Assembly (NCBI GenBank): GCA_025642075.2
Contig: JAODUO010000040.1
Location: 253,501-317,500 of the forward strand
DNA: 64,000 nucleotides
DNA from: Ridgeia piscesae
Lineage: Eukaryota; Annelida; Polychaeta; Sabellida; Siboglinidae
Direction: 5' to 3'
The position numbers and the translations under genes were made by a program. A model generated the notes under the pieces. The model was given only the letters and a program-made list of their open reading frames with translations, was not told where the DNA came from and made no database searches. The first letter of the stretch is position 1, and each line of letters begins with the position of its first letter. Below, one piece after another: positions 33,011 through 63,894 of this stretch.

Positions 33011-34244
33011 AACAAACACATCTAACAAGTCTCTGAAGAGACAGGTTACAACGGGACATGATAGGGTTAGGGATCTATCACGATTCATCGCCAATTTTGA
33101 TAATGGCCAAGTGTCAATGTGTGATCTATTTTTGACGCTGTGTGATCCAAAGGTATATGTTTACAGTTGGCTCTCTGAGAACCTTAGAGTAAACTGGTGA
33201 ATCTTAGACTATATAACATGGTTAAACTAGTTAACCTCACTCATACAAGGTAAACTGATGCATCTCAGATTCAACCAGGGTAACAGTATTCATATAATTA
33301 TTGTCAATAAATGTCATCCTTGGAGGTATGATGACTGACTATACAATTAATGCACTGATTGCACAAACGATATCAGAAACTAGAGGCTCCAGAAACTTAA
33401 AGCCCAGAAACTGAAGGCCCAGAAAGTATCCACCTGCCCAGCCAGCTCTTTGGAATAACCACTTAGGAAGACTTCCAACATCTGAGCCTCCCAGGACACC
33501 GAGGTACGCTGGTAACACCGGGTGTTGTACAGGTGTCATCAGACGCCATTGTCAATATATGGCCAGTTTTTTGGCCCACAACACATACAGGCCCAAGTAG
33601 CACAAGAGGTGAGTCTGCCAGGCACTCTCCAGTCTCACTCGTCACCTCCCCCCACCTGACCCCCTATTCAGGAAGAGAAAGAGTACAATCCTAGAGCCCT
33701 GCATGTATGTGCCGGGATCCCTGACCACATGCAGGAAGTTGTCCTGGACTGTCCCCCCAGCTGCCTCTTGATGGCTCTGTCATCAACAGTTTGGGGCCCT
33801 ACCTCACATGTGAACCCATTTTGCTAATCACCCCATGAGGGGTGGACAGATCAGGGAGTTAAATTTGCTCTACATTTCACTGAGTGGGCAAACTCCTTGA
33901 TCAACCTCCTTGAGAGCTCACGCGGATATTCCTTAGTTAATTGCCACAATAAATTCCATATAAATAACGTTTGTACATATCCTATGTCACAGTAAGTATT
34001 CAACTGTGTTGGGACAGGCGCTTTATCTTATTGATGTGCTCGACTATGATCTGCTCACTTTGATTCCTACACACATTGTGTGTCACCGAGTAGGATATTA
34101 ATGTGCGCCACTTCAACTACACCACTTGGAGCTGTCAGCTTTGATTCCACTTGCAATTCTAACGTAGAAATGTGTCTTGATTCAATCTTTACAGACCACA
34201 AAACCTAAAAAACCCAGACTTGCGGCATTTAATATGTAGTGCCC
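33011..34244. other. unique non-coding DNA
   Basis: Nothing I can support. The two minus-strand ORFs near 33.34-33.65 kb are short and overlap in different frames. Confidence 0.5.
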
Positions 34245-36625
34245 AAGTGTAGTAACGTTACGCCACATACATTATTCTCTTCAAGTGTAGTAACGTTACG
34301 CCACTTACATTATTCTCCTCAAGTGCAGTAACGTTACACCACTTACATTATTCTCCTCAAGTGTAGTAACGTTACGCCACTTACATCATTCTCCTCAAGT
34401 GCAGTAACGTTACGTCACTTACATTATTCTCCTCAAGTGTAGCAACGTTATGCCACTTACATTATTCTCCTCAAGTGCAGTAACGTTACGTCACTTACAT
34501 TATTCTCCTCAAGTGTAGCAACGTTACGCCACTTACATCATTCTCCTCAAGTGTAGTAACGTTACGCCACTTACATCATTCTCCTCAAGTGTAGCAACGT
34601 TACGCCACTTACATCATTCTCCTCAAGTGTAGTAACGTTACGCCACTTACATCATTCTCCTCAAGTGTAGCAACGTTATGCCACTTACATTATTCTCCTC
34701 AAGTGTAGTGACGTTATGCCATTTACATCATTCTCCTCAAGTGTAGCAACGTTATGCCACTTACATCATTCTCCTCAAGTGCAGTAACGTTACGTCACTT
34801 ACATTATTCTCCTCAAGTGTAGCAACGTTATGCCACTTACATTATTCTCCTCAAGTGCAGTAACGTTACGTCACTTACATTATTCTCCTCAAGTGTAGCA
34901 ACGTTACGCCACTTACATCATTCTCCTCAAGTGTAGTAACGTTACACCACTTACATCATTCTCCTCAAGTGTAGCAACGTTACGCCACTTACATCATTCT
35001 CCTCAAGTGTAGTAACGTTACGCCACTTACATCATTCTCCTCAAGTGTAGCAACGTTATGCCACTTACATTATTCTCCTCAAGTGTAGTGACGTTATGCC
35101 ATTTACATCATTCTCCTCAAGTGTAGCAACGTTATGCCACTTACATCATTCTCCTCAAGTGTAGCTACGTTACGCCACTTACATCATTCTCCTCAAGTGT
35201 AGCTACGTTACGCCACTTACATCATTCTCCTCAAGTGTAGTGACGTTACGCCACTTACATCATTCTCCTCAAGTGTAGTGACGTTACGCCACTTACATCA
35301 TTCTCCTCAAGTGTAGCAACGTTACGCCACTTACATCATTCTCCTCAAGTGTAGCAACGTTACGCCACTTACATCATTCTCCTCAAGTGTAGCAACGTTA
35401 TGCCACTTACATCATTCTCCTCAAGTGTAGCAACGTTATGCCACTTACATCATTCTCCTCAAGTGTAGCAACGTTAGCCACTTACATCATTCTCCTCAAG
35501 TGTAGAACGTTACGCCACTTACATCATTCTCCTCAAGTGTAGAACGTTAGCCACTTACATCATTCTCCTCAAGTGTAGCAACGTTACGCCACTTACATCA
35601 TTCTCCTCAAGTGTAGCAACGTTACGCCACTTACATCATTCTCCTCAAGTGTAGTAACGTTACGCCACTTACATCATTCTCCTCAAGTGTAGCAACGTTA
35701 CGCCACTTACATCATTCTCCTCAAGTGTAGAACTTAGCCACTTACATCATTCTCCTCAAGTTAGTAACGTTATGCCACTTACATTATTCTCCTCAAGTGT
35801 AGTAACGTTACGCCACTTACATCATTCTCCTCAAGTGTAGTAATGTTACGCCACTTACATTATTCTCCTCAAGTGTAGTAACGTTACGCCACTTACATTA
35901 TTCTCCTCAAGTGTAGTAACGTTACGCCACTTACATTATTCTCCTCAAGTGTAGTAACGTTACGCCACTTACATCATTCTCCTCAAGTGTAGTAACGTTA
36001 CCCACTTACATTATTCTCCTCAAGTGTAGAATGTTACGCCACTTACATCATTCTCTCAAGTGTAGTAACGTTACGCCACTTACATCATTCTCCTCAAGTG
36101 TAGAAACGTTACGACACTTACATCATTCTCCTCAAGTCTAGAACTTACGCCACTTACATTATTCTCCTCAGTGTAGTAACGTTACGCCACTTACATCATT
36201 CTCCTCAAGTGTAGTAATGTTATGCCACTTACATCGTTCTCCTCAGTGTAATAACGTTACGACACTTACATCATTCTCCTCAAGTGTAGTAACATTACAC
36301 CACTTACATTATTCTCCTCAAGTGTAGTAATGTTACGCCACTTACATCATTCTCCTCAAGTGTAGAAATTATACCACTTACATTATTCTCCTCAAGTGTA
36401 GTAACGTTACGCCACTTACATTATTCTCCTTAAGTGTAGTAATGTTACGCCACTTACATTATTCTCCTCAAATGTAGTAACGTTACGCCACTTACATTAT
36501 TCTCCTCAAGTGTAGTAACATTACGCCACTTACATTATTCTCCTCAAGTGTAGCTACGTTACGCCACTTACATTATTCCCCTTCAAGTGTACCGGTAGTA
36601 ATGTTACACCACTTACATTATTCTC
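34245..36625. repeat. 2.4-kb array of a 38-nt minisatellite
   Basis: About 62 copies of a 38-nt unit containing GTAACGTTACGCCACTTACA and TCATTCTCCTCAAGTGTA. The unit carries the palindrome GTAACGTTAC. Variant order repeats at a 10-unit (380-nt) offset (34.44 and 34.82 kb). Units become more degraded, with 1-4-nt deletions, after 35.46 kb. 38 is not a multiple of three and the unit has stops, so no long ORF arises. Confidence 0.97.
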
Positions 36626-46468: not shown

Positions 46469-47691
46469 TGACGCGCCAGCGTGTACAACTACGTTATGTA
46501 CGGACTGGCCCCAAGTCCGTGGGTAAACTGTTGCAAGTTTTCGACCAGTGACCAACAGAGTAACATACCCGCAATACCTAAAAGCAGTTTAATTCGTGAC
46601 AGTAACTTCATATTTCCTCCCGGCGACAGGTGACAGTGCCGCTTTGTTGACGCAACACGTTTATATTGAAAACAGGTGGCGTTCTCACGAATATCTCTTG
46701 ATCATGTCAAAGTTAACATCAGATGACCAGTAAAGTGCGGGGGATTTCATCCTTTACTTTCTTTATTTAATTTTTTTTTAAATATACGTGGTCCAAGAAG
46801 AATTCCCCAATTATAGTTTTCTTTTTGGGGTGTAGGCCTACTTATTGAATAATATCAGAATTATCAAGATTATTATGATGGTCATTTATAAAATTCCAAC
46901 AACCACACAGATAAATATATATATTATTAAACATCATCTTGAGTAATTCAACCAATTGGTACTTTGTTTTAAAACTTAACAGACACTAAAGAACTTGTTT
47001 TGGAATGGTCTAACAGACTAATTAATTTGTAACAAATGTTGAAACTCTTGCAAGTGACTTGATACTAGAACAAGAGGCTTGGATTTTAACAGCTGAAACA
47101 CAACAGTAGGAACTTCAGTCATTTGGGGCAAATCCACACACAGCTCTGCACATGTTGTCTATTTCATGCTAACATGCACTGCCACATGTATGCCTTTTTA
47201 CACAAAGAACAGGTCATAACGAAATAAACAAAACATACAGGGAGTCTTGGACATCTGGATAAAATAATCAACACTTCACAAGTATGGATTGTCTACTTTT
47301 GACAGGATAACCTTTTAATCAGATTAAAAGGGGTGGCATTACTCGGGGATGGAGATCCAGCGGCCCTGTCTCGCTCCACTCCGGGATGTGTGTTTAACTT
47401 TTTAAAGTATACACTTAAAGAAAACATGGTTTGACAGTTTTTAATAAATGTCACCAGGTTCCATTTTGCTATACAACGTATGTATACATCAACAATTCAC
47501 AGCAACAGCAGTACCTGTATTTTTAAAATGTTGCTAAGCAGAAATAAAATCTCAGATATTTAATTGATCACAATTTTAATCGTTCAAGAACAAGTCATCA
47601 GGGTCAACTTATTAAAATTTTCTACATGATTCAAATACTTGTGTTAGTTGCAACGTGTTTTACTGGTTCAGCCATTTCCCTGGTTCCTACA
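46469..47691. other. 3' flank of BMS1, unique DNA
   Basis: Presumably includes the BMS1 3' untranslated region at its right end. No poly(A) signal could be assigned with confidence; ATTAAA on the minus strand near 47560 is one candidate. Confidence 0.4.
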
Positions 47692-47845
47692 GTCATCATG
47701 ACAATGTCTGTTTTTCTTCTTCATCTGCCCCAAGACGTCATTCAGTCGTCATGACGATGTTTGTTCTTCCTCTTCACCTGCCCTATGACATCATTCAGTC
47801 GTCATGACGACGTTTGTTCTTCCTCTTCTCCACCTGCCCCAGAAC
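47692..47845. repeat. 53-nt repeat spanning the BMS1 stop codon
   Basis: Three copies beginning at 47798 (in the coding exon), 47745 and 47692, with a period of 53 nt. The unit covers GTCATGACGACGTTTGTTCT and TCCTCTTC, that is the codons for the basic C-terminus plus the stop. Copy 2 keeps the TGA-equivalent at 47742-47744; copy 3 is more diverged. Confidence 0.9.
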
Positions 47846-48007
47846 GCGATAGATTTGTTTCTTGATTTCCTTGTGCTTAGCGTCCCTCTTGGCCTCCACT
47901 TTCTCGTTCTGCTTCTTGTGTAGTGCGACTCTCTGCCGCATCGCCTGGTGGCGCTCCTGCATCTTTTGCTGATGCAGCGTCTTCATCATCTTCAACAGTG
48001 ATGCCAC
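47795..48007 (-). CDS. BMS1: BMS1 exon 21, C-terminus and stop
   Basis: Acceptor TTTGTCCGCCAG. Encodes [20 protein letters not shown], a basic coiled-coil-like tail, and ends [10 protein letters not shown] with TGA at 47797-47795. The last ~48 nt form the first copy of the 53-nt repeat. Confidence 0.95.
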   Translation of the reverse strand: MASLLKMMKTLHQQKMQERHQAMRQRVALHKKQNEKVEAKRDAKHKEIKKQIYRVLGQVEKRKNKRRHDD

Positions 48008-51000
48008 CTGGCGGACAAAGTTTAAATTAACCAATAGCACAACCAACTACAACGTCAGGTAGTCCTTGTCTGCCAAATATGCAAACGATGTTGTCACATG
48101 ACATGTAGAATGAGGCAGTAATGCTGCACAGTATCATTTAATGACTGCCACAAAAGCAAAGCTACAACCTCCATGTAGCAAGTAGATATTGAACGATGCC
48201 TGTGGTTATTGAGTCCGAAATTTCTTACCTACTTATAACCTCCCACCTTCAAAAGTTGTCTATTAAAAATGTATTCATACTGCTAGAATTAAATAAATCA
48301 TCAATTATTTACTGTCTTCGGTGGGAAGACATCACCTGATTCCGGTGCATCCAAATTCTCCTCACCTTTCTCTCATGTGGCTCTCTCACCATGGCAACCC
48401 TCTTACTCTGCCGCGGGTCCTTCACCTTCCTCGCCACCTTCGGTTTGTCCTTGAATGGTAGCGCCCTCTGTAGTTCCTTGGGAATGATCAGAGGTGCTGG
48501 CGCCTTCAGCTGCCGCTCCACGGGCTGCGGCAGAACACAAGCAAACACACACATTATGTTTAGAATAACAAATATGAATCCTTTTCTTTAACAGTTTTGC
48601 CAGTGAAAAGACCAGGGAAGCAAAATCGTGTCCCCCAGTAACATAGCAGCAGCGTTTTGCACGACAACAATGGATTATGTTTAGTCATGAATTTCCACTA
48701 CAGTGAAATATACACAGTAAGATATATATTATGTGAAACATACAGAAGCATTTAAGAAAACGATAATTACACAGATGCAAAGACAGTTGTCTAGCGTATA
48801 GGAAATAACATTGTCTTTGATTACTTTTTCTAACATTTTAAATTAAATAATTATGTTATATTTGCTAAGTTTCGTAACATCTATTTACACGTTTTTTAAC
48901 AAAAAGATTTTTTAAATTTGGGTGGGATTGCCTGGAGAGAACGGACTGGTCATGCCACTTGCCTACACATCAACTTACCTTGTACAAGTGATCAGGGTTA
49001 ACTTCCCTCTTCACCCCTTTTTCCCGCCGCAACTGCCCCACTGTCTTCATGCCTTGCCACTGGTTCTTCTCAGCAGGTGGCAGCAGCAGGCTGGTGACGG
49101 GGTTGTAGAACTCTGGCACCTGGACGGGGTACCAGGTGCGCACAAACACTATGTCTGCAACAACAGAGGGCGCCAGGTGTTTGCTGAGTTCACAGTTTTT
49201 AGTCTACAAAATCAATGTAGACTGATGTAAATTATTGGGAGAATTACTGGGCTAATAAACTCATCCATGAATGTCACTGAAACTGTCCCCATGACAAGTA
49301 TCTCTCACAACCTCTGTAGACTGTCACCTAAACTGACAGGACATGTATTGTGTCACCTACACTGACAGGACACAGTGTGTGTGTCACTAGTGACAGGACA
49401 AAAAGTTGGTGTCACCAATGACAAGACACATGATGTGTCACCAGCAACAGAACATGTAGTGTGTCAACAGTGACAATATATAGTGTGTCACCAGTGACAG
49501 GACACATAGCGTGTCACCAATGACAAGACACATAGTGTGTCACCAGTGACAGGACACATAGCATGTCACCAGTGACATGACACGTAGTGTGTCACCAGTG
49601 ACATGACACATGATGTGTCATCAGCAACAGGACATGTAGTGTGTCAACAGTGACAATATAATTATAGTGTGTCACCAGTGACAGGACACATAGCGTGTCA
49701 CTAGTGACAGGACACAGCGTGTCACTAGTGACAAGACACATAGCGTGTCACTAGTGACATGAGACGTAGCATGTCACCAGTGACATGACACGTAGTGTGT
49801 CACCAGTGACAGGACATAGTGTGTCAACAGTGACAAGATGTAGCATGTCACCAGTGACAGGACATGTAGCGTGTCACCATGACAGGACTCGTAGCGTGTC
49901 ACCAGTGACAGGACACATAGCATGTCACCAGTGACATGACACGTAGTGTGTCACCAGTGACATGACACATGATGTGTCAACAGTGACATGACACATGATG
50001 TGTCAACAGTGACAATATATAGTGTCACCAGTGACAGGACACAGCGTGTCACTAGTGACAAGACACATAGCGTGTCACTAGTGACATGAGACGTAGCATG
50101 TCACCAGTGACAGGACACGTAGCATGTGACAAGACACATAGTGTGTCACCAGTGACAGGACACGTAGCGTGTCACCAATGACAATATCACCTACAATGTG
50201 ACCTACCACTGAGTAGTATCTTGTCCTCAAACGTCGCCCTGAAAGCACCAGCTGGACCGTCCTTCACCCCCTTCTTCAACTGTCCTCTCACCCCACTCAC
50301 AGTCCGGATGTTGGTTCCCTCAAACTTGGCCACTTCCAGGGCCGAGTTAAACATGCCCTGCAATGACAACCTTCAGTCTTAACAACAACTTCCAGGGGCG
50401 AGTTAAACATGCCCTGTAATGACAACCTTCAGTCTTAACAACAACTTCCAGGGGCGAGTTAAACATGCCCTGCCATAACAGCCTTCAGTCTTAACAACTT
50501 CCAGGGGCGAGTTAAACATGCCCTGCAATGACAGCCTTCAGTCTTAACAACAACTTCCAGGGGCGAGTTAAACATGCCCTGCAATGACAGCCTTCAGTCT
50601 TAACAACAACTTCCAGGGGCGAGTTAAACATGCCTTGCAATGACAACCTTCAGTCTTAACAACAACTTCCAGAGGCGAGTTAAACATGCCCTGCAATGAC
50701 AGCCTTCAGTCTTAACAACTTCCAGGGGCGAGTTAAACATGCCCCGCCATAACAGCCTTCAGTCTTAACAACAACTTCCAGGGGCGAGTTAAACATGCCC
50801 TGCAATGACAACCTTCAGTCTTAACAACAACTTCCAGGGGCGAGTTAAACATGCCCTGCAATGACAGCCTTCAGTCTTAACAACAACTTCCAGGGGTGAG
50901 TTAAACATGCCCTGCAATGACAACCTTCAGTCTTAACAACAACTTCCAGGGGCGAGTTAAACATGCCCCGCCATAACAGCCTTCAGTCTTAACAACAACT

Positions 51001-51618
51001 TCCAGGGGCGAGTTAAACATGCCCTGCAATGACAACCTTCAGTCTTAACAACTTCCAGGGGCGAGTTAAACATGCCCTGCAATGACAACCTTCAGTCTTA
51101 ACAACAACTTCCAGGGGCGAGTTAAACATGCCCTGCAATGACAACCTTCAGTCTTAACAACAACTTCCAGGGGCGAGTTAAACATGCCTTGCAATGACAG
51201 CCTTCAGTCTTAACAACAACTTCCAGGGGCGAGTTAAACATGCCCTGCAATGACAACCTTCAGTCTTAACAACAACTTCCAGGGGCGAGTTAAACATGCC
51301 CTGCAATGACAGCCTTCAGTCTTAACAACAACTTCCAGGGGCGAGTTAAACATGCCCTGCAATGACAACCTTCAGTCTTAACAACTTCCAGGGGCGAGTT
51401 AAACATGCCCTGCAATGACAACCTTCAGTCTTAACAACAACTTCCAGGGGCGAGTTAAACATGCCCTGCAATGACAACCTTCAGTCTTAACAACAACTTC
51501 CAGGGGCGAGTTAAACATGCCCTGCAATGACAGCCTTCAGTCTTAACAACAACTTCCAGGGGCGAGTTAAACATGCCCTGCAATGACAGCCTTCAGTCTT
51601 AACAACTAATATACATAT

Positions 51619-51691
<73 letters not shown>

Positions 51692-54600
51692 AAAACATTG
51701 CTAGAGCAGCTCTGGCAATAAGCTTGGAAGTCGTCCTTATTGCCAGAGCAGAAGTGGATGTATGGGGATGTACATGTACGTCCGGTTGGCAGTATATTCA
51801 GCAAACACATGTCAACATAGTAATTACTTCAGATACATATGACACTCTGATATTCGATTATTTCCAGAGCAGTCTTTTACGTAAATCAGTTCTCAATTTC
51901 CCCGCCAAGACAATGACAATAGTCACGACAATGATAATGATTCATACCTGCATAGATTATGTCACTGTCTTATGTATGTAAACATTTGTATAAAACAACT
52001 TATGCTTTCCTCATTAATATATTGCATTTGTTTGGCCTTTGTAAAGTACCATGTTGATTGCATAAATAACACAAGAGCCTCGTTTTGAACCTGGAGTATG
52101 CAGTAATGTTCTCACCTGTATAAATGCGGTCTTCTTGTAGATCTTGTAGGGTGTCCCGGTCAGTTTCAGCTTCTTCACAATGGTCATTGCCTTGTCCAGT
52201 TCGAGGACGACGCCTGTGGCCGTGACACGGAACTCAGGCTGTGGACAAACATTACACGCGTCAACCGAGTGACACACTAATCCTCAGTCTCATGTTTGTC
52301 CTTGTCACTGCATAACGCTGCACAAAACAGGAAGATGGATTTGTTGCTATCTCACATACATTATCACATTTATAGTAGTATTATGATAATTGTGACAACA
52401 GAAGATTTAATATTGCACTGTTCATTTAAAAAAAACATTTAACAGCAGTTTTTGCGGCTACAAACTGCGCTATGTCACACCAGCGCAAGCAACTGAGTTC
52501 TTATTTGACAAATAATGACAATAACAACTTACTGTAGACCCAGCAACTGTCTGTACCGCCAACATGCCTGTACCTTGAGGAGTGATCGGACCTGTCAACA
52601 ATGACCAGTGTCTATAAACATTGACCAGTATCTATAAATAGCAATCAATGACCATCAACATTACAATTATGAATAATACTGTATCTTTTATATTAGCCCT
52701 TACATGTGAATTTGTAATGGAAACAAACATGACAATTGCAGTCAGTTACCCCAGAAGGTGGCGTGACAGTGCAGGTGTTCGGGTGTGTACTTGAGCAGTC
52801 GATTGCGTCCGTTGTGATCCTGCATGGAGAAGAGAGCAATGCTCTGGAAGCGACGCCAACCGAGGGAGATGATCATAGGATCCCGTGTCTTCAGGATCCT
52901 CTTGTGCCATCGGTGCTTCTTGAGTCGCACCTACACAACACAGGGGACAGACCACTATTTTATGTCTGTGCTTATTGAATCGCACCTACACGACACAGGG
53001 GACAGACCACTATTTGATGTCTGTGCTTCTTGAGTCGCACCTACACAACACAGGGGACAGACCACTATTTTATGTCTGTGCTTCTTGAGTCGCACCTACA
53101 CGACACAGGGAACAGACCACTATTTTATGTCTGTGCTTCTTGAGTCGCACCTACACGACACAGGGGACAGACCACTATTTTATGTCTGTGCTTATTGAGT
53201 CGCACCTACACGACACAGGGGACAGACCACTATTTTATGTGTGCTTCTTGAGTCGCACCTACACAACACAGGGGACAGACCACTATTTTATGTCTGTGCT
53301 TCTTGAGTCGCACCTACACGACACAGGGAACAGACCACTATTTTATGTCTGTGCTTCTTGAGTCGCACCTACACGACACAGGGGACAGACCACTATTTTA
53401 TGTCTGTGCTTATTGAGTCGCACCTACACGACACGGGGACAGACCACTATTTTATGTCTGTGCTTCTTGAGTCGCACCTACACGACACAGGGGACAGACC
53501 ACTATTTTATGTAAGTGCATCTTGATTCGCACCTACACAACACAGGTAACAGACCACTATTTTATATCTGTTTCTTTAGTTGCACCTACATGGCACAGGG
53601 GGCAGACCATTATTTTACCTAAAAAGTCACAACGAACCTGTACATAGCCAATATTTTGTTCCGCACTGAGCAGACCGCCGAGGATGATGGGATATGTGGC
53701 ATCGAAATTGTCAATGAACTCGCAGGGCATGTTGTCTACTTGGAGTCGCACGTAGACCCCAGGGCGATACCCCTCGTACAGCGCCCTCGTCTCCTCATCC
53801 ATCTTGTCAAACTCCTCACGGTTCAACTGTCACACAAAACATGACAACTTTGTTAATACATCTGCTCTTAGTCTCCTGTAGTAAAGTTCACTAAAGTTTG
53901 AAAAAACGAAGTATCAAATGAACATGACCAGAACAGATTGCCATTATTCGGATACTGCAAACTCATGATGACATCCACCTGTAATATTATATGGTCTATT
54001 TATGTATGGGAGCACAGTAACCACGTCACGTCACACTGATGCATCTAAGTCATTGTGACTATGGGAACCACTATTTCTTCTTTGTAATGGTGCCACAGGG
54101 TACAAAACATTAGTCCATCTATGTAACTGTGCTACTGGGTACAAACCGTTATTCCTTCTATAAACCCATGTGAAAGGATACAGATTGCTATTCCCTCTAT
54201 ACTGCCATGTGAGAGGGTACAGAAGACAATTCCCCCAAGCCGTCTACCACTCACAATCGCCTGCTGCTCCATCTCAGACTTGAGGTCGTCGAAGTACGTC
54301 CCGCCTCCCTCCTTGTCGTCGTACATGCTGTCAAACATCGCCTTCATTCGCTTCTTCTTCTCCGTCCTCTTCTCCAGGGCCTTTCTCTTGCGACACTCGT
54401 CCCGATCCTCCACAATATACGCCCCTATCAAGTCAGCAAATGTACGGGGGTAACTGTATGTGTATTTGTTATACTACTCGAAGACACTTTGGGTAGCCAG
54501 AGTCACTGGTTCATCTGACAGTTTATTTGGGGAGTTTTCAGCCACATTGAAAGTACTACACAACAGTAAGTTATTAACACAGTTTTATAGTTTCACTAAC

Positions 54601-57600
54601 CAGGAGCTTTATTATGTGTGTGAAAAACCAATGCATTTTAAAAACGAACAATGGTTGTACTTGTACAACGAAAGCACGTGAAGAAATGTTCCAAGCATTT
54701 AATTGTCAGTGAGACAACATGAAACATACACATGACTTGCATGTTGTGGCCTTGTGATTGTAATATTGCAATATGAACATGCAAATGAGAACATATGAAA
54801 CCAAGAACTGAACTGTGAAACATTTGATTAAGATGAAAGTGACACAGGCAATGAGAACACGTGAAATGTGTCATTGCGAGTTAGTATTTGTGACATTTGT
54901 GACAAAGAAAGTAACTAAGGGAATCTTACATGTGAAACACTGGTTAAATAAACAACATGGGAAATCATTAGGGGTTAATTTGAGATATTTAGTGTGTTAA
55001 GTGTCCTCACCCTCAGCCTTCTTGTCCTCGTCCTCGCCCTCCTCACTGTCACTCTCCTCTGCCTTGTGCACTTCTCCTGTCTCAAGGTCCTCAAAGTCAC
55101 CGAACAACTTGTCTACAACAAACACATTCACGTGACTACTGGACACACTAGTACATAACACATTCACGTGACCACTAGACACACAAGTACATAACACATT
55201 CACGTGACCACTAGACACACAAGTACATAACACATTCACGTGACCACTAGACATACAAACACATAACACAGTCTAACGTCAGACTGCAGATGTTTCAAGA
55301 CCCCACGCATTTGCATTTAATTACTGACATCTAATCATTTGTGACTTTCTCTGAATGATGTAAAATGTGTATATATTTGTACTCATGTTTACTACCTCAA
55401 TTATTTAACTCTCGAAGCTGTGCATGGCAAAATATTAAATTATTTTGTTTTAGAAATACATTCTACTTTTAACCACCAGGTAAACAACTTTCTGATGATC
55501 ACTGCAAGTAATTTCTTACGGCCAGTTCAGCAGTAACACAGTAAATTACAATTTAAAAGACAATATATCCTGGATTTATCGCATACAATCCAATGTTAAG
55601 TCACTGCTTCTTTATAACGGGCTTTCCGACAGAAAGTGTATTTACATAGAAGTAACCCGAGTGACCTACCGTCTTCCTCCAGCAGGGCCTGTGCGTCCTC
55701 ACACGCCTGCCACTTGCCCGTCACGAAGCAATCTTTTATACTTTCCATCAACTGAAACAACACTGACACAGTCACAACAACAACAAAATTTCTCCTCAGA
55801 TATTTACAATGATAGTACATGTTCCTCACCACATATATTTTCAACAACAATAACAACTTAATTTAACTTATGTTATTTCTCCCCGCATCACTCACGTCTT
55901 CCTGCAACCAGTCCCTGATGTCAGTGAAGTGGAAACAGCTGCAGTCTGTTGCATTTGCTGTCACCCGATTCACTTTTTCCCGCATGTCTTTCCGCCGGGC
56001 GACCTTGAACAGACCTCCAACGTCGTCGTCTTCCTCCTCGTCTGAGTCTCCGGCACTGGCAACTGAAACAGACAATTGGTGCTGGTGTCAGTCTCATGCT
56101 GAAGAATATTATTCTCATTCTGAATTTCGCATGGAATCATATATTTCCATGCATTTCTTTTCTCAGTTGCATTCCAAGTTAAATTACTATTTAAAAATAT
56201 TTTAAAGACATTTTATGTAAATTAGTTGTTATGAAATGCGCCACTGTAGTTCTCTGATAAAGAATATCTTTTTGTAATATTAAAAGTCACCAATAGAACT
56301 ACAGTGTATACATATATCATAAAGTGTGGATCAATTGCTAATCTCTTGCATAGTTGTATTGCATTGGGTATTACATGAAACAAAGTTGAACAGCTGTTGA
56401 TGAAAGTGATGGGGTCATGTGGACTCATTGGATTTTTTAAATTTCAAATCAACAAATCTCAGAATGCAATTCTAATCTACATATATTGTTGATATTACTT
56501 CTGACAGAAACATTGTTTCATAGGAGGTATACAAGTTTGGAAAAATAAATCAAACTCACATTAATATCTTAAGACATTTACACATAATCGTATGGTCATT
56601 AGTCACACAATAGTCGGAAAAAACAACTCTGACAAAATATCAATACGATCTTAAAAACATCAGAAACTTACCAGTGTCACCATAGACAAACTTCCTCAAG
56701 TTTGGTATTTCCTGCTGACGACGCATGAAGGCTTCTGATGCCTTCAAGGCAAGATTCTCCTTCCACTGGAGTCCAGGGCCTGCAGAGAGAACTAAGGCAA
56801 TGGAGGGTGGCTGTGATTCACACACAATGTACAGGTCCAATGTCAAGATATTATTCACTTCTATATTTTAAAAGTTTACGTAAATTACCCTCACTAGACC
56901 CAGCACAGATAGACACCCCACAATAAACTGATGGTGGTGGTCTAAATTAAACACGTTTTTTTTACAAAAAACTCTGAACATTATATGACAAAGTTCATAA
57001 AATGGTGCAGTTATAACACAATATATCATCCTATTTTATGTTTTTAAGAAGGTCCTGGCAGTATTGGTACTTAAGAATACCTCACATAAACAGTATGACC
57101 AGATCTAAACATGAGGATGATGAGGAATTGTTACATTGATACGACTGTACAATAAATGCAGAAACATAAAATTTTATTTCCTTTCCTCACCTTCTTCCAT
57201 TTCCTCCTCCTCCTCCCCATCACTTCCCTCTTCAGCTTGCTCTTCCATTCCCTCCTCCTCAGACGAGAGGTCCCTCTCTGAGCAGACCCCACTGTCTGTC
57301 CCAGCAGCCTTTGCTCCATCCTCCGTCCCCTCTTTGCCACCTGACGATTGTTTCCCTTTCTTAGCAGCAACCTTTGCTGATGTTATTTTCCCGACATCTC
57401 TGACGCTCGTGTTTTCCTCTTCACTGTCATCTTCCAAGGACAGATCCTCATTCTCATCAAGATCTTCATCAATGCGATCATTTTCACTATCATTTTCACT
57501 GTCATATTCTACCTCATTTTCACTTTCAGTGTCACTTTCATTATGTTCGATCTGTTTTGACTTCTTGTTGGCAGGTTTTGTCGGGACTACTTTGTGGGTA

Positions 57601-60600
57601 GAGTCTGCTGCACCTTTGGTTCCCTTCTTGCGAGTGACAGGGGAGAAAATGGCTACACCCGAATGGTCACTGTGGTCATCATCAGAGCTCTCTTTCTCAA
57701 GGTCATCTTCACTGTCGGCGTATTCAACATCTGCAGCCGTCTGTGCAAAAAATTTAATATAGGACATTTAATAAATGGTATATGACCAGTAGAGTTTGGA
57801 GAAAAGAATTAGGTTTCAAGTAGTGTAAACCAGGTATTGGTTCAAACCATTCTGATGCAACACAAACAGAAGATTATCAATTTCTAAATACACACAGATA
57901 GATGGAGTATTAAATAACATATGTCCTTTGATCTAAAACACTATTTTTCATTTGTGCCTACCCAGGTACTCATCTATGTTCAGTACTCCCCCTCTTCAGC
58001 TGACCCCCTGATGAGTGGACCCCCTATGTCGTGACAGTTTGTCAATGTACGGACTGTTTTGCCATGTTAATGAGGGGTCACCCGTGGACATGGACAGGAT
58101 ATTTGTGTCTGGTGCTAAACTTGCTGTGAAACTCAAACAAACAAATTCTATCTACTCTACCTGTTTGCCATCAGTCTGTGACTGTGACATGACCTTGTCT
58201 TCCTCCTCCTCCTCTTCCGTTCCCTCTTCTTCATCTTCACTAATTTCTTCATCCTCCTAAAGTAATAAAAATAGACACATTTCAGAACATTCTTGAACGA
58301 CAAGAAGAAGAACAACTACGGAAGACGTGTTTCTATTCGCTTGTGTATGTAAGCCTTGTTGTATGTATTTCAAAATTGTCAATACCTTTGTCACAGAGTC
58401 ACAGATAATTTTGTCCTGTGTATGTGTGACAACAATATGAAAAAAGTGAACTCTTTAGTGCCAGACCCAACTGTGCCAATCACTGTTTCTGTGCCACACA
58501 TCTTGTTTCTCAACATCAAATGACATTAACTGTGTCTGTGATACCATTTTAAATTATCAATAAGACTGATTGTAACAAAACAGAGGTGGTCGGCCACTAG
58601 TTTTATAATTACATTTACATTATTCTGATGGCAAAAATAAGACAGAAGTCGTAACCAAAACACACAACAGTGTATATTTATCATGCACAACACATCGAAA
58701 AACAGTTGAAATGTGTATATTAGTGGAAATAAGTTTTGCTGTGTCATTAGACTATTTCTTTTTTTGGAAAAAAATTGAACCTGTCGTTTCAAGAAATGTG
58801 AATAGTTTACTAAGTGACTTTTTGTACATTAAGCTCATAAAATACAAGTTTAACAAAAAAAGGCCTGACATTTCTTGCAGGTCAATGCAGCTTGGTGCCA
58901 TTGGAATGTTTAAGGCTAAAATAATAACGATTCTATTACTTAATAATGTCAGAGTTTACTAGTGTAGTTAACAATGAAGGTCATTCATAACGACAAGTTG
59001 ACCCGACACCTAGTGACAAGCATGGAAATCAACAGTTAGTGGCGTTTCAACAATGAAACCAGAAAACGACTGGTATTTGATGATACTATTTCTTACACAA
59101 AGTTCCTATTGTATCTAGGCTAGCGCTGTCAATCGCCAATTGTGACATAGGCGAAATGGTTTGCTATTTGGCGAAAATAAATTAAAACTCTTCGCCAAAT
59201 TGGCGAAACGTTATTTATGTAATTATTATTGCTGTCATCAGCAATACATGACTGCATTATTCACTGCATTATTCAACGCCCGGCTCTGTTGAAATTGCCA
59301 AAACAATCGCTCATCACACTGACCCAAATAACCAGTCAGCGTAACGTGACCTGCTGGGTAAACAATAGGTCGCTAATCACTCCATTTAGCCATGCTCACA
59401 GACAACAGGGGGGCTTAATTAAATCAAGAAATGTGTTTACTAGACAATGGGGACCTGCTTAATGACACTAATTACAAATTTGAGACAAGTACAACGCTGT
59501 ACCTGACAGGTTCCATATTATCACTCAGTCTCAAGGCAGTCACATGGCATGGTCATTAATCAATGTGCCATCTAGTAACTATGCAATAAAATGCCAATAT
59601 AGATTGTAATTCATGTATATTTGACAAGTCTCACCACCAGAAGCACAACAGATAGAAAGATGCAAGTCAAAAACGTGTTTTATCAAGTAAAGCCTGCGTC
59701 ACCCAGGCCAGGATTACAGTTAACTAATTTCAGGAATTAATCCATTCAATTAATCAATTTCTGAACAGTCGAGTGATGTTTTAAGATAGGTAATAATTAT
59801 ATCAATACATTGTTTGAATTACTGCGGGGCAACAAGAGTAGAGTAGATGGTTCTTAATTATTTTGCCTTGTAAAATTGTATCTTTTAACCTCTAAATAAA
59901 AAGCTGTAATGTTAATTTTATTACATTAATAGCATGTGTTAGTTGCTGTTTCTTTGTATATATATTGCAAAATTCCCAACAGATGTTCAGCTTTCCTTTT
60001 ATGGTTAAACAATGTTCTGTTAAATTATACTGGATGTTTATTTGCATTATATATGTTTATCTAAATATAGAAATGTTTAGTTAATTAAAATTGGGATTTT
60101 TTTCTTTTGAATATTGTATAGAATTTTATATTATGTCTTGCATTTTTATACCGGGTAATGTAATTGATCTAAAAAATGGCTAAAGAAAATCTCATTTGGC
60201 TAAAAGAATTCTGACCTTCAGCCTAATTGGCTAAACAGATTCTAGGCACAGTGCTAGCTTTGTATAACAATACAAACATAATTTAATGATTAGATAATAT
60301 TCTAATTTAAATGTTTAAGAATGAGAAACTGTGTATAACATGGATTCACTTTTGTTTCTATAATGCTGAGATGATATTGAAGAGGTTTCAGGAATGAAGG
60401 GATTTAACGGTTATGACTGAATGCAGGCTAGACTTTCTCACCAACCAGTAGAATTACCTCATCATCCTCATCATTGCTGTCTTCATCTTCAACCTCCGAG
60501 TTATCCTCAAATACTGCCTTCCTCCGAACCCTCCCATTCACTTCCACTCTCTCTTCTTGCGGCATCCGAAATCTGGTTGTCACGGAAACAAGAATGTTAT

Positions 60601-63600
60601 ATTGCAAGTGAATGCCTCATGAACTTCAGTAGGTATTGACAAATAATATTGTAACATCTACAAATAAAATTGCAACATGTCTACACAAGTTCATATAATA
60701 TTTCTACTAACATGTATGTAGTAGATCATTTGTGTGAACATTAGTGAAAAAAATTCCCATCAAGTTTGTTTTTCTCTCAATTGTATTACTTGGATGTACC
60801 CCACACAGGTGTCCATCGTCAAAATGTAGAAACCTGACCAAAAAGCTATGTTGATAACGTTGAACTAAATGAAAAGAAACCTTAATCTGCTTTTCATGTT
60901 TCAATGACAATATCAGACACACTCCTACATCCACTGGCTGGCAGCAAATAGTGGCATGATATCTTACCGCTCTGCGTCCTCTGATGAAATGGGTGTGGTT
61001 CCCTTGAAGATGGACACTTGGCTGGATGCCATCTTTGTGTCGACAGTCTGACGTGAATCGACTAGATTTGACACAAGTTCGTTAGATGGTTTCTCTGGCT
61101 GAAAATACAAACATTTTCATTCAGCTTTTGAGCCTTGTCCTAGAGCTCATGTGGCTTTACTTTTGACTGCTAAACAATGAGTTGATTAAAAGCAAATTTC
61201 ATCGGCATGACACGAGAGTGTCTTCCCTGTTCAGATGTAGTGACATGTGCAAATGTAGTGACTTGTGTTATCAGTGCAGGTGTAGTGATGTGAGAGTGTC
61301 TTACTGTGGATGTGTAATGACATGAGTGTGTTACCTTTGCAGGTGTAGTGTAGTGACTGACAGTGTTACCTGTGCAGGTGTAGTGACATGAGTGTGTTAC
61401 CTTTGCAGGTGTAGCGAAGTGAGTGTGTAACCTGTGCAGGTGTAGTGACTGACAATGTTACCTGTGCATGTGTAGTGACATGAGTGTGTTACCTGTGCAG
61501 GTGTAATGACAAGAGTGTGTTACCTGTGTAGGTGTAGTGACAATAGTGTGTTACCTGTGTAGGTGTAGTGACAAGAGTGTTACCTGTGTAGGTGTAGTGA
61601 CAATAGTGTGTTACCTGTGCATGTGTAGTGACATGAGTGTGTTACCTGTGCAGGTGTAATGACAAGAGTGTTACCTGTGTAGGTGTAGTGACAATAGTGT
61701 GTTACCTGTGTAGGTGTAGTGACAATAGTGTGTTACCTGTGTAGGTGTAGTGACAAGAGTGTTACCTGTGCAGGTGTAGTGACATGAGAATGACTACCCC
61801 CCAGCTCTATGTAGACGGCGTCCTTGTCGTAGACGATGCCCCCGACCCCTGACATGGGTGAGTAGATGAGTCGTTCCTTCTCACTCAGTGTCCGGCGGTT
61901 CTCGCGGTCAGGCAGAGGGCAAGGGTCAGGGAGGTAGCTCATGTCGCGGACGCTGAAGTCACCGCAGCCTGGTATGTGGACGTGGCTGTGGTTGTGGAAG
62001 TGAGTGCCACGCACGTAGCCGTACAGACACACAGACCGGTCACACTTCGCCTGTCTTCGCACTAGCTCGGGGTCTGTGACATCCTCCAGTCTACAACATG
62101 TGACACGTCACCTGTGGTCAACACAGACCCGTGACATGTAACCTGTGACACATGACACTTCATATTGGGTCACCTGTGACATGTCACTTCACCCGGGGTC
62201 ACCTGTGAAATAACACTTCACCCGGGGTCACCTGTGAAATAACACTTCATCTGGGGTCATGTGTGACATATGACACTTCACCTGGGGTCAGGTGTGACAT
62301 GAAATTTCACCTGGGGTCAAGTGTGACATATGACACTTCACCTGGGGTCAGGTGTGACATGACATTTCACCTGGGGTCAAGTGTGACATATGACACTTCA
62401 CAGTTAAAAACTATATGTAAGGAATGTTATAATTGTATTATTATTTTTAATCTATACCGTACACTTTTTAAGTTTTATTGTATGTGAAGTCTAAGAGACG
62501 CACCTGTCAGCAATCAGATATGGATGTGTGGACCTCCAAATGAGAGGTCTGAACTTCATGACGGAGATGAAGCGACCGAGGTTGTGTATCTCTGTCTTTT
62601 GGTACTCCCCGTTCACCATGCCAGACAGGTAGAACAACTTGGCCCCCTGCAACATGCATCATACACCTTCACCACTGGCTCGACAAAGCAACAATTCAGC
62701 CACAATTGGATACATGACTAAGACACCCTTTGATAAGCTATTCAGCCAACCCTGAACAGACTATTCAGCCAACCCTGGACAGAGTGCACAGTCACCCACA
62801 GACTGACTGTTTCTTGCAGATACAACTCATTCGTTCCACTGGGGAGTGAAATTGCTGAAGTAAAATAAGCATTTTCTTGCATTGTTCTAGAAAGCAGGTG
62901 GTGTGAAGGTTTTTATAAAGAAGCACACCAATACAAGGCATCTAGTTCTGGCCGAGCTAACTGACCGCATAGATCTCTGTCCAGAAGCGATGTTTCAGTC
63001 GTTTCTTTGTCTTGCTTAGCTGTTTGTTGTTGCGGAAGTGGTCTAGATGTGTCAACACACCCATAATCTTGGGGAAGCCGTGAACCTGACAGATGTTGAG
63101 GAACTCAAACGTTTCCATCTCAAAGCCAAAGCTTGCATCGACCAGCAGCAGAATCTGACAGCACAAACAATCATTTTAGAATGTTACACTGTCGATTGGC
63201 AACACAATATGTCATTTATCATTTGTATTATCGCGTGTTGTATAAATGTAGACAAAAATAATGTTTGGTTCAAAATCTTCAAGGCTGTATTTATCCCACC
63301 TAGATGTGTCCCATTTTAAAAATAACCAAGTATTTTCAGCTTTAATAGCTACATTATCCTGAACTTGGTCTGTGCTAGACATTTCACAAGTCAGCTTAAA
63401 TGTATAATCAAAACAAAGTTTAGTTTGAGAAATGTGAAAATACTTGTGGTTGTTTTATTTTACAACCACTGTTTATGAGATCAAAATAAAGTACAAACCT
63501 AGATGAATAAAATTGCTTCAGCTCTGAACCAATTCCCAGAATATACGAATGACTCTTTAAATGTTTATTTTCTTCATTTTTTATGTGATTACGTAAAGCA

Positions 63601-63894
63601 TCAAATTGAAAGCCAATTCTTTTGATGCTTCCCCAACCATCTACTTCTTTCTAAATTGTTGTCTCTTCTTGCTACACCATTCATCAGCATTTTTCAGATG
63701 ATTTCACTGAATTCTAAATAAACTACATGTTTGGTAACATGACATTACTAACACACTGGTAGCCACAACCGTCATTTGTCTGTCTGACTCTCTCCAGGCT
63801 GTACCATGACTTACCAGGTCAGCAACCTTAGCCAGGTCTATCATTGAGTTGATGTCATTGTTGCATTCAACAATTGTGAGCCGTCGTTTCTTTC
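47795..63894 (-). CDS. BMS1: BMS1 ribosome biogenesis GTPase, 21 exons, N-terminus off window
   Basis: BMS1 is the GTPase of the U3 snoRNP/SSU processome in the nucleolus. It binds RCL1 and is needed for early pre-18S cleavages. Twenty-one exons join with no frame break into 1,168 residues plus stop; the human protein is about 1,280, so roughly 100-110 N-terminal residues with the P-loop are beyond the right edge. By in-window numbering: end of the GTPase domain at 1-137 (with G4-like THLD at 61-64 and [16 protein letters not shown] at 74-89), AARP2CN-like domain about 90-245 ([34 protein letters not shown]), long acidic region 290-700, then the conserved C-terminal domain 697-1098 ([80 protein letters not shown]) and a basic tail to 1168. 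Nearly every intron holds a minisatellite, some overlapping splice sites. Identification is from recognised family motifs in the right order. Confidence 0.96.
48008..48365. other. BMS1 last intron, nothing notable
   Basis: Unique sequence. Confidence 0.6.
48366..48524 (-). CDS. BMS1: BMS1 exon 20 of window
   Basis: Acceptor TTCTGCCGCAG, donor AAG|GTGAGG. 53 codons: [47 protein letters not shown]. The IPK.LQ.ALPFK and REPHERK motifs are diagnostic. Confidence 0.96.
48525..48978. other. BMS1 intron, nothing notable
   Basis: Unique AT-rich sequence. Confidence 0.6.
48979..49154 (-). CDS. BMS1: BMS1 exon 19 of window
   Basis: Acceptor GTTGTTGCAG, donor AAG|GTAAGT. 58 codons: [40 protein letters not shown], ending HLYK. 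Strong family match. Confidence 0.96.
49340..50190. repeat. palindrome-bearing minisatellite, about 26-28 nt
   Basis: About 30 variable units built on TAGTGTGTCACCAGTGACAG plus GACACA in the intron between BMS1 exons 18 and 19. Many copies contain the perfect palindrome TGTCACTAGTGACA or a close form. It ends about 17 nt from the exon-18 donor. Confidence 0.94.
50207..50357 (-). CDS. BMS1: BMS1 exon 18 of window
   Basis: Acceptor GTCATTGCAG, donor AGTG|GTAGGT. Encodes [49 protein letters not shown]. Conserved core. The 5' edge is the seed of the array to the right. Confidence 0.96.
50330..51606. repeat. 52-58-nt minisatellite carrying the exon-18 splice acceptor
   Basis: About 22 copies. 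On the minus strand each reads TTAAGACTGAAGG, then TTGTCATTGCAG, then GGCATGTTTAACTCGCCCCT and GGAAGT. The last part copies the first 27 nt of exon 18 with one shared change (G to C). An (AT)n run follows at 51637-51689. Confidence 0.97.
51607..52115. other. BMS1 intron, (AT)n and unique DNA
   Basis: An (AT)n run at about 51637-51689 directly follows the acceptor-carrying array. The rest is unique sequence. Confidence 0.7.
52116..52238 (-). CDS. BMS1: BMS1 exon 17 of window
   Basis: Acceptor TTGTCCACAG, donor CAG|GTGAGA. 41 codons: [40 protein letters not shown]. Confidence 0.96.
52533..52591 (-). CDS. BMS1: BMS1 exon 16 of window
   Basis: Acceptor TTGTTGACAG, donor ACA|GTAAGT. A 59-nt micro-exon encoding [19 protein letters not shown], which joins exons 15 and 17 in phase. 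Confidence 0.93.
52750..52930 (-). CDS. BMS1: BMS1 exon 15 of window
   Basis: Acceptor GTTGTGTAG, donor TGGG|GTAACT. Encodes [57 protein letters not shown]. Among the most conserved parts of BMS1. Its first 18 nt are the seed of the array to the right. Confidence 0.96.
52913..53600. repeat. 54-55-nt minisatellite carrying the exon-15 splice acceptor
   Basis: About 12 copies fill almost the whole 707-nt intron 52931-53637. On the minus strand each unit contains CCCTGTGT.GTGTAG, then GTGCGACTCAAGAAGCAC, identical to the first 18 nt of exon 15, then GACATAAAATAGTGGTCTGT. Confidence 0.96.
53638..53826 (-). CDS. BMS1: BMS1 exon 14 of window
   Basis: Acceptor TGTGTGACAG, donor CAG|GTTCGT. 63 codons: [60 protein letters not shown]. 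Strong match to the family. Confidence 0.96.
54040..54230. repeat. degenerate intronic repeat, about 45 nt
   Basis: Four diverged copies with GGGTACA.A.C.TT.TTCC.TCTAT between BMS1 exons 13 and 14, ending about 25 nt from the exon-13 donor. Confidence 0.65.
54255..54424 (-). CDS. BMS1: BMS1 exon 13 of window
   Basis: Acceptor GACTTGATAG, donor ATT|GTGAGT. Encodes [20 protein letters not shown], then [20 protein letters not shown] and [11 protein letters not shown]. The basic helix plus TYFDDLK is typical of BMS1/TSR1. Confidence 0.95.
54425..55010. other. BMS1 intron, nothing notable
   Basis: Unique AT-rich sequence; the small plus-strand ORFs are not supported. Confidence 0.6.
55011..55112 (-). 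CDS. BMS1: BMS1 exon 12 of window
   Basis: Acceptor TTTGTTGTAG, donor GAGG|GTGAGG. Encodes [20 protein letters not shown] then acidic residues; [10 protein letters not shown] is a family signature. Confidence 0.95.
55113..55669. other. BMS1 intron with 36-nt repeat at its acceptor end
   Basis: About four copies of a 36-nt unit (CACATTCACGTGACCACTAG plus ACACACAAGTACATAA) at 55122-55265, starting about 9 nt from the exon-12 acceptor. The rest is unique sequence. Confidence 0.88.
55670..55751 (-). CDS. BMS1: BMS1 exon 11 of window
   Basis: Acceptor TTGTTTCAG, donor GACG|GTAGGT. Encodes [20 protein letters not shown] and [17 protein letters not shown] is a family signature. Confidence 0.95.
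55896..56062 (-). CDS. BMS1: BMS1 exon 10 of window
   Basis: Acceptor GTCTGTTTCAG, donor GAC|GTGAGT. Encodes an acidic start ([19 protein letters not shown]), then [19 protein letters not shown]. The LGGLFKV-type and DCS motifs match the family. Confidence 0.94.
56063..56671. other. BMS1 intron, nothing notable
   Basis: Unique AT-rich sequence. Confidence 0.6.
56672..56779 (-). CDS. BMS1: BMS1 exon 9 of window
   Basis: Acceptor TCTCTGCAG, donor CTG|GTAAGT. Encodes [20 protein letters not shown] and [15 protein letters not shown], a conserved helix of the family that marks the end of the disordered part. Confidence 0.95.
57191..57740 (-). CDS. BMS1: BMS1 exon 8 of window
   Basis: Acceptor TTTTGCACAG, donor GAAG|GTGAGG. 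The largest exon, 183 codons, acidic and Ser-rich ([52 protein letters not shown]) with short basic clusters (KKSK, AAKKGKQ). Poorly conserved in the family and probably disordered; in yeast the region binding RCL1 lies further C-terminal in such acidic sequence. Confidence 0.9.
58161..58256 (-). CDS. BMS1: BMS1 exon 7 of window
   Basis: Acceptor TTACTTTAG, donor CAG|GTAGAG. 32 codons, very acidic ([12 protein letters not shown], then a run of six E) ending SQSQTDGKQ. Low complexity, but flanked by good splice sites and in phase. Confidence 0.85.
59118..60262. mobile_element. possible transposon-like segment inside a BMS1 intron
   Basis: The edges are weakly inverted: AGGCTAGCGCTGTC at the left and, reversed, AAGCTAGCACTGTGCC at the right. 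Short GGCGAA (left) and TGGCTAAA (right) clusters lie inside. No ORF. The rest of this 2.2-kb intron (58257-60457) is unique AT-rich DNA. Confidence 0.3.
60458..60572 (-). CDS. BMS1: BMS1 exon 6 of window
   Basis: Acceptor GTGACAACCAG, donor GAG|GTAATT. Encodes [20 protein letters not shown] then an acidic run ([13 protein letters not shown]). Start of the long acidic region. Confidence 0.92.
60573..60967. other. BMS1 intron, nothing notable
   Basis: Unique AT-rich sequence without repeats or motifs I can support. Confidence 0.6.
60968..61098 (-). CDS. BMS1: BMS1 exon 5 of window
   Basis: Acceptor GTATTTTCAG, donor GCG|GTAAGA. Encodes [20 protein letters not shown] and [13 protein letters not shown]. 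Phase 0 in, 2 out. Confidence 0.93.
61205..61790. repeat. 29-31-nt minisatellite carrying the exon-4 splice donor
   Basis: On the minus strand each unit reads like CATGTCACTACACCTGCACA then GGTAACAC. That is the last seven codons of exon 4, the CAG|GTAAC donor and a few intron bases. About 15 donor copies follow the real one. Confidence 0.95.
61766..62090 (-). CDS. BMS1: BMS1 exon 4 of window
   Basis: Acceptor CATGTTGTAG, donor GCACAG|GTAACA. The 325-nt exon runs from [20 protein letters not shown] via [29 protein letters not shown] and [20 protein letters not shown] to HVTTPAQ. Its last ~21 nt are part of the donor-spanning minisatellite to the left. Confidence 0.95.
62095..62400. repeat. 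intronic tandem repeat of about 30-31 nt
   Basis: About nine degenerate units around TTCACCTGGGGTCA.GTGTGACATATGACA between BMS1 exons 3 and 4. It begins about 5 nt from the exon-4 acceptor. Confidence 0.88.
62504..62646 (-). CDS. BMS1: BMS1 exon 3 of window
   Basis: Acceptor CATGTTGCAG, donor CAG|GTGCGT. Encodes [16 protein letters not shown], then [15 protein letters not shown] and THPYLIAD. Phase 0 in, 2 out. Confidence 0.95.
62966..63154 (-). CDS. BMS1: BMS1 exon 2 of window
   Basis: Acceptor GTGCTGTCAG, donor GCG|GTCAGT. 63 codons from [18 protein letters not shown] through [15 protein letters not shown] to [20 protein letters not shown] stands in for the G4 motif that recognises guanine. 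Confidence 0.95.
63815..63894 (-). CDS. BMS1: BMS1 exon 1 of window
   Basis: Acceptor TGTTACAG, donor CTG|GTAAGT. The exon finishes a Gly codon, then encodes [20 protein letters not shown] and AKVADL: the part of the GTPase domain where a DxxG motif would be, here the atypical EC..D form known for this family. Confidence 0.93.

Follow-up and report, generated by a model that had tools for sequence, protein, structure and literature searches.

Minisatellite arrays across splice junctions of the BMS1 gene in the tubeworm Ridgeia piscesae, and their recurrence in other genes of the same genome

In a stretch of 64,000 nucleotides from the annelid Ridgeia piscesae (assembly GCA_025642075.2, contig JAODUO010000040.1, positions 253,501 to 317,500), referred to below as the window, the gene for the ribosome biogenesis protein BMS1 carries three minisatellite arrays that run across exon-intron junctions and repeat exon bases together with the splice site. 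Arrays of this kind recur in TSR1 and in four of six myosin loci of the same genome. Such exon-edge arrays are real and somewhat commoner than chance in the sampled introns, and their abundance is partly explained by repeats that favour sequence rich in guanine and cytosine (GC). They match mirage-type minisatellites, a class described from amphioxus, and we consider it probable that they arise from rampant, GC-biased local duplication and are tolerated as the copy on the exon side stays functional.

The BMS1 gene is located on the minus strand, where 21 exons were resolved at window positions 47798 to 63894; these represent the 3′ part of the gene. The exons are numbered here by their order within the window, from exon 1 (63815-63894) to exon 21 (48007-47798, including the stop codon at 47798), and two more coding stretches were taken to be 5′ exons just beyond the window. 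All 20 introns between the exons in the window have GT-AG boundaries, and the joined reading frame is open up to the stop codon. The resulting translation of 1172 amino acids matches residues 1-1167 of PDB chain 7mq9_SI, entitled 'Ribosome biogenesis protein BMS1 homolog'. Over its C-terminal 416 residues, the translation shares 94% identity with a protein predicted for Lamellibrachia satsuma, a vestimentiferan tubeworm (Annelida, Siboglinidae), while the next listed match, from Capitella teleta, shows 66% identity. Across the assembly (628 Mb, 4875 contigs), matches to BMS1 were found on contig C40 only.

Arrays were called with Tandem Repeats Finder (TRF) at its default scoring, with a main threshold of a score of at least 100 and a weaker set with a score of at least 50. 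For the BMS1 region this resulted in 13 merged arrays with a unit of at least 9 bp. The original prediction, made from the letters of this DNA, that three arrays overlap a junction was borne out by TRF and by the letters themselves: the junctions concerned are the donor of exon 4 and the acceptors of exons 15 and 18. The units of these arrays measure 31, 55 and 56 bp, respectively, and each array carries ∼13-23 copies of the splice site together with 18-26 exon bases. Specifically, the 31-bp array (61264-61788, minus strand as for all BMS1 features; ∼17 copies) crosses the donor of exon 4, the last base of which is 61766, and has 23 exon bases inside. Of the three junctions, this donor was called with the least certainty, and a poorer donor at 61784 would be located within the array as well. 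The 55-bp array (52913-53617; ∼13 copies) crosses the acceptor of exon 15, which starts at base 52930; each unit consists of ∼37 intron bases and the first 18 exon bases, and the array occupies intron 14 up to 20 nt from the exon 14 donor. The 56-bp array (50332-51607; ∼23 copies) crosses the acceptor of exon 18, with 50357 as the first exon base, and its unit combines ∼30 intron bases with 26 exon bases. Also in agreement with the original prediction, the stop-codon region is duplicated by a 53-bp repeat (47690-47828; 2.6 copies), which comprises the final 31 coding bases, including the stop codon, and the start of the 3′ untranslated region.

The other arrays were found at varying distances from exon edges. 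A 26-bp array in intron 18 (49322-50183; ∼33 copies) lies 23-24 nt from the exon 18 donor, a 36-bp array in intron 11 (55121-55270; 4.2 copies) lies 8-9 nt from the exon 12 acceptor, two overlapping 39-bp repeats in intron 13 (54079-54234; 2.1 and 2.2 copies) lie 20-21 nt from the exon 13 donor, and a 29-bp array in intron 3 (62141-62401; 8.5 copies) lies 50-51 nt from the exon 4 acceptor. In addition, a weak 20-bp repeat (52597-52638; 2.1 copies, score 70) is located 5-6 nt from the exon 16 acceptor. At least three further arrays had been described at 5-17 nt from a junction; this held for the two at the acceptors of exons 12 and 16, but the remaining ones are 20-24 or 50-51 nt away. None of the seven intronic BMS1 arrays with a score of at least 100 is more than 51 nt away from an exon edge, and three weak intronic ones (score 50-85) are found at distances of 66-994 nt. 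One array of the region (57477-57542) is located inside exon 8.

The residues encoded by the captured exon bases were thought to be conserved, and this was indeed observed at exon 15, where VRLKKH corresponds to MRLKKH in the PDB chain, and at exon 18 (GMFNSA), but not at exon 4, where SHVTTPAQ falls in a gapped and poorly matching stretch. Copying in the direction from exon to intron could likewise be upheld at exons 15 and 18. The BMS1 prediction for L. satsuma, a gene model, crosses the borders of exons 14-15 and 17-18 without residues from the arrays. In the exon 18 array, all 22 intronic copies encode proline (CCC or CCT) at a position where the exon codes for alanine. The same position is alanine in the PDB chain, which we take to be the human protein, and proline in the L. 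satsuma protein. This one substitution hints that the exon 18 array or the variant may predate the split between Ridgeia and L. satsuma, or that the copies may exchange sequence with the exon.

The placement of the arrays was compared with a null model in which each array was cut to one unit and dropped randomly on array-free introns, either pooled or restricted to the array's own intron. For the seven BMS1 arrays with a score of at least 100, six were observed within 30 nt of an exon edge, where 1.9 were expected from pooled placement (p ∼0.002) and 3.4 from own-intron placement (p 0.04). The three spanning arrays compare with expectations of 1.0 (pooled; p 0.06) and 2.0 (own intron; p 0.28). 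The claim that arrays touch exon edges far more often than chance would allow was, for BMS1 alone, overstated.

The replication set consisted of TSR1, a paralogue matched by the same domain as BMS1, and six myosin loci of the same genome, which were chosen for their clustered exon matches after viewing an open-frame column that was first taken as a sign of arrays. A long open frame was subsequently rejected as such a sign, as exons with values of 771-1153 at the myosin loci C1015 and C971 show no array in the letters. In a first pass over 14 introns, three of eight arrays were spanning. The complete set of 35 introns contained 22 arrays with a score of at least 100, of which seven span a junction; the expected numbers were 2.2 for pooled placement (p 0.0025) and 2.6 for own-intron placement (p 0.008). 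Similarly, 11 of the 22 arrays are located within 30 nt of an edge (expected 4.1 pooled, p 0.0007; 5.7 own intron, p 0.009) and 14 within 51 nt (5.5 pooled, p 0.00008; 7.7 own intron, p 0.003). When the score was lowered to at least 50 (33 arrays), own-intron placement gave p values of 0.043, 0.020 and 0.015 for spanning, 30 nt and 51 nt, respectively. Four arrays with a score of at least 100 were excluded, the surrounding intron or gene being incompletely known: C272 242301-242661 (∼30 nt from a donor), TSR1 99360-99926 (∼38 nt from an acceptor), C1015 215786-216005 (with a coding segment ∼50 nt away) and, on the TSR1 contig, 102828-103473 (beyond the known exons).

The spanning arrays of the replication set cross two donors at myosin locus C285, one acceptor and one donor at C570 (the array at the donor with a 103-bp unit), and acceptors at C272, C103 and TSR1, whereas no spanning array was detected at C971 and C1015. 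The largest is that of TSR1, with ∼58 copies of a 45-bp unit. Altogether, spanning arrays are present at six of the eight loci (BMS1, TSR1, C285, C570, C272 and C103). Pooled with BMS1, the data comprise 55 introns and 29 arrays, with 10 arrays spanning a junction, 17 within 30 nt and 21 within 51 nt; upon removal of three arrays judged to be of low complexity, these numbers were 10, 17 and 20 of 26. This recurrence in other genes of one genome supports the assignment to the mirage class that had been suggested for BMS1.

Base composition accounts for part of this excess. The GC content of array units was 0.467-0.468 as compared to a background of 0.40, and was alike in random and gene loci. 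Within introns, GC content was 0.40-0.44 in the 50 nt nearest to either edge and 0.34-0.37 beyond 100 nt. We therefore weighted the placement by GC, with a weighting strength fitted on 42 arrays from mostly random stretches. For the pooled set, this raised the expected number of spanning arrays from 3.2 to 4.5 with pooled placement (10 observed; p 0.007) and from 4.9 to 6.3 with own-intron placement (p 0.054). Accordingly, the spanning excess amounts to ∼3-fold over uniform placement, ∼2.2-fold over GC-weighted placement, and ∼1.5-fold when GC weighting and own-intron placement are combined.

The unit boundaries bear on how the arrays arose. Across the 10 spanning arrays, the exonic share of the unit is evenly spread from 0.28 to 0.90, with a mean of 0.53 (Kolmogorov-Smirnov p 0.35), and four arrays are at donors and six at acceptors. 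The even exonic share, together with the fact that both sides of the intron are affected, indicates that the junction does not determine where the units end. In the explanation that we favour as the probable one, a local tandem duplication of 20-100 bp, presumably by slippage or repair, would yield a first unit that happens to include a splice junction; the array would then grow on the intron side, while the copy on the exon side would remain in use. Minisatellites are abundant in this tubeworm genome, and their birth would favour sequence of higher GC content that contains words similar to CA/TG, GTGAC and CAGG; for this reason GC-rich exon edges within AT-rich introns would be favoured sites. 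Selection would presumably serve as a filter that removes arrays disrupting the coding sequence and tolerates those in which one outer splice site remains intact. Beyond GC, there may also be a modest preference for the junctions themselves.

Several observations weigh against GC-biased duplication as the explanation. With GC weighting, the 17 of 29 arrays within 30 nt still compare with 7.8 expected from pooled placement (p 0.0002) or 11.4 from own-intron placement (p 0.015), and the 21 of 29 within 51 nt with 9.9 (p 0.00001) or 14.3 (p 0.004). For the replication set alone, GC-weighted own-intron placement gave p values of 0.046 for spanning, 0.062 for 30 nt and 0.027 for 51 nt. Furthermore, the genes in the replication were few and were picked as easy to find rather than randomly, and accurate splicing in the presence of the many splice-site copies is presumed.

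Conceivably, splice junctions could be true initiation hot spots for duplication, owing to chromatin edges, transcription-coupled breaks or repair at exon borders. This we regard as unlikely, even though the ∼3-fold spanning excess and the near-edge excess over uniform placement appeared in independent genes (own-intron p 0.003-0.009) and were only partly removed by GC weighting. When GC weighting is combined with own-intron placement, the pooled set yields p values of 0.004 to 0.054. Genome-wide, the consensus donor 9-mer CAGGTAAGT occurs in 6723 copies with 803 pairs 8-38 nt apart (11.9%), and its reversed control in 5252 copies with 636 such pairs (12.1%). The donor word thus showed no tandem excess over its reversal genome-wide, with a rate ratio of 0.99 and a rough 95% interval of 0.65-1.53 for which the clustering was guessed; this comparison has low power, as the surplus of copies over the control suggests that only about one fifth of the CAGGTAAGT copies are real donors, and a doubling at donors would be hard to detect. 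Taken by itself, the pairing of ∼12% of the copies of CAGGTAAGT and of its reversal at this distance means that short tandem duplications are very frequent.

The random loci likewise speak against hot spots. In 19 mostly random stretches of ∼227 kb in total, including 47 kb of the window and locus L009, 42 arrays had a score of at least 100. Three to four of these have a coding-like segment within 60 nt, as compared to 0.9-1.9 expected (p 0.06-0.12), with ab initio coding segments serving as exon proxies of weak power. Coding coverage in the first 50 nt from the array edges was 0.038 with looser and 0.027 with stricter segments, versus 0.054 and 0.035 overall, without a peak at the edges. The stricter segments covered 0.027-0.049 of the sequence within 250 nt of arrays and 0.008-0.017 beyond 300 nt. 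A clear case among the random-stretch arrays is found at locus L020, where an array stops directly 5′ of the acceptor of an HtrL_YibB exon. The notion that minisatellites generally reside near exons did not survive this comparison, with only 3-4 of 42 arrays beside a detectable coding segment in ∼230 kb of mostly random sequence. The proposal that tandem duplication initiates near splice junctions is weakly supported: the spanning excess is ∼3-fold over uniform placement and ∼1.5-fold with GC weighting in the own intron (p 0.054), and CAGGTAAGT showed no excess in a test of low power.

Plain chance, in the sense that short introns place any array near an edge, appears improbable to us. The introns that host arrays are indeed short once the arrays are collapsed, and BMS1 alone, with three spanning arrays versus 2.0 expected in their own introns, would be compatible with this idea, as would the 10 spanning arrays versus 6.3 obtained with GC weighting. 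From a trinucleotide-weighted null, 0.3 of 29 arrays would be expected to span with pooled placement, 6.7 in the own intron (p 0.065) and, within 30 nt, 14.3 versus the 17 observed (p 0.15); this null had been fitted to the sample itself, low-complexity windows had an influence on it, and it carries no weight here either way. Chance placement is, however, difficult to reconcile with the own-intron results of the replication set, in which seven of 22 arrays were spanning versus 2.6 expected and 14 were within 51 nt versus 7.7.

The copies of splice sites within the arrays, here termed ghosts, are in many cases intact. With the real site counted, GT is kept at 15 of 16 junction-like sites in the exon 4 donor array, and AG at 13 of 13 sites in the exon 15 array, 19 of 23 in the exon 18 array and 31 of 32 acceptors at myosin locus C103. 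When scored with a matrix derived from the other junctions of BMS1, the exon 4 donor reached 6.2 and its ghosts mostly 6.2-6.4, the exon 18 acceptor 4.2 and the ghosts of its units mostly 3.5-4.2, and the exon 15 acceptor 3.7 and its ghosts mostly 3.0-3.8. The ghosts of TSR1 are decayed, with AG kept in 33 of 51. At C570, GAAG stands in the TRF consensus and in the one copy inspected, as compared to GCAG at the real site.

Intact ghosts that score on par with the real sites could suggest that junction arrays are retained by selection, with extra donors or acceptors buffering mutations or aiding splicing, and the original prediction had offered the tolerance of spare splice sites as one explanation. 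Each intact ghost was put singly in the place of the real site, with the normal partner site kept. Of the 44 BMS1 ghosts tested in this way (exon 4, 14 ghosts; exon 15, 12; exon 18, 18), 12 kept the phase and none gave an open frame. Likewise, none of the 32 TSR1 ghosts with AG kept the phase or gave an open frame. This shows that the real site must serve for the full protein, and that the ghosts in the tested BMS1 and TSR1 cases cannot act as spare sites for it. Moreover, recent homogenisation alone would keep copies intact, the ghosts at TSR1 have deteriorated, and the repeat at C570 departs from the real site. We therefore regard selection for spare sites as highly improbable. The frame that ends in the TSR1 exon stays open over 451 codons across the junction-spanning 45-bp array (C249 92642-93994), but in-frame repeat insertions at TSR1 were dropped as a candidate, since none of the 32 ghost acceptors with AG is in phase with it. 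An origin by retro-splicing is not favoured either, because the unit ends do not coincide with the junctions.

The window and the sampled loci contain further minisatellites. In the 17 sampled random loci, ∼8% of the sequence is minisatellite. Very large arrays in the window, with no gene recognised nearby, are located at 24593-29189 (42 bp, 109 copies), 12501-15512 (28 bp, ∼115 copies), 34244-36591 (38 bp, 62 copies) and 4200-5740 (24 bp, 64 copies). A possible coding segment with an internal 30-bp repeat, on the minus strand at 19246-19488, had no Pfam match. For eight selected open frames from the first 47 kb of the window, Pfam matches all stayed below the cut-off, if there were any, and no RNA family reached its gathering score in the window.

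Going by excerpts of the published accounts, mirage minisatellites are known in amphioxus from Adh3, from the globin genes BflGb6 and BflGb9 (PMC3087553), and from PGBD5 and troponin C (PMC3902484), with regular splicing and length variation being reported, and with boundary copies that escape homogenisation in BflGb6 (PMC3087553, PMC3902484). The precedent named in the original prediction was thus correct, the window itself being from an annelid. As in amphioxus, the tubeworm repeats extend across exon-intron boundaries on the 5′ or 3′ side and duplicate the splice signals; their units are of minisatellite size, and the boundary is spanned with the splice signal repeated in three arrays of BMS1 and seven of TSR1 and the myosins. 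They differ in being found in annelid BMS1, TSR1 and myosin genes, in reaching ∼58 copies, in occurring several per gene, and in having been compared with placement nulls. Judged from the genome sequence, the tubeworm arrays fit the structural definition of mirages.

Related phenomena are described elsewhere, again as far as the excerpts of these reports go. Intron gain by tandem genomic duplication, as in the potato RNA-dependent RNA polymerase (RdRp) gene (PMC4974935) and in the Rogers model cited in PMC3087553, similarly involves a duplicated tract that includes splice signals, whereas the tubeworm arrays lie within introns. A statistical excess of tandem repeats near intron-exon junctions has been documented in green algae (PMC3887541); those repeats, in contrast, have units of 1-50 bp and concern plants and algae, and exon copies across the junction are not mentioned in the excerpts. 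Intronic minisatellites in an annelid have a counterpart in the first introns of earthworm metallothionein genes, where exon 4 duplications were present in one clone and absent from the transcript; in the excerpts these are described without arrays across a splice junction (PMC12783039). A search of titles and abstracts retrieved no report of junction-spanning minisatellites in an annelid.

In the accounts excerpted here, junction-spanning minisatellites have been described from a handful of amphioxus genes, and their occurrence in an annelid makes the class testable. One practical consequence is that gene prediction in array-rich genomes can choose a ghost site, as happened once at TSR1 during our splice calling. 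The arrays also raise the questions of how splicing selects the one frame-keeping site among a dozen to ∼50 look-alikes, and whether junction-spanning arrays create new introns. It would be a doubtful but far-reaching extension that minisatellites are genuinely born at splice junctions in no fewer than two distant animal lineages, the annelid tubeworms and amphioxus, in which case the arrays may supply duplicates of splice sites and exon pieces for the growth, sliding and gain of introns.

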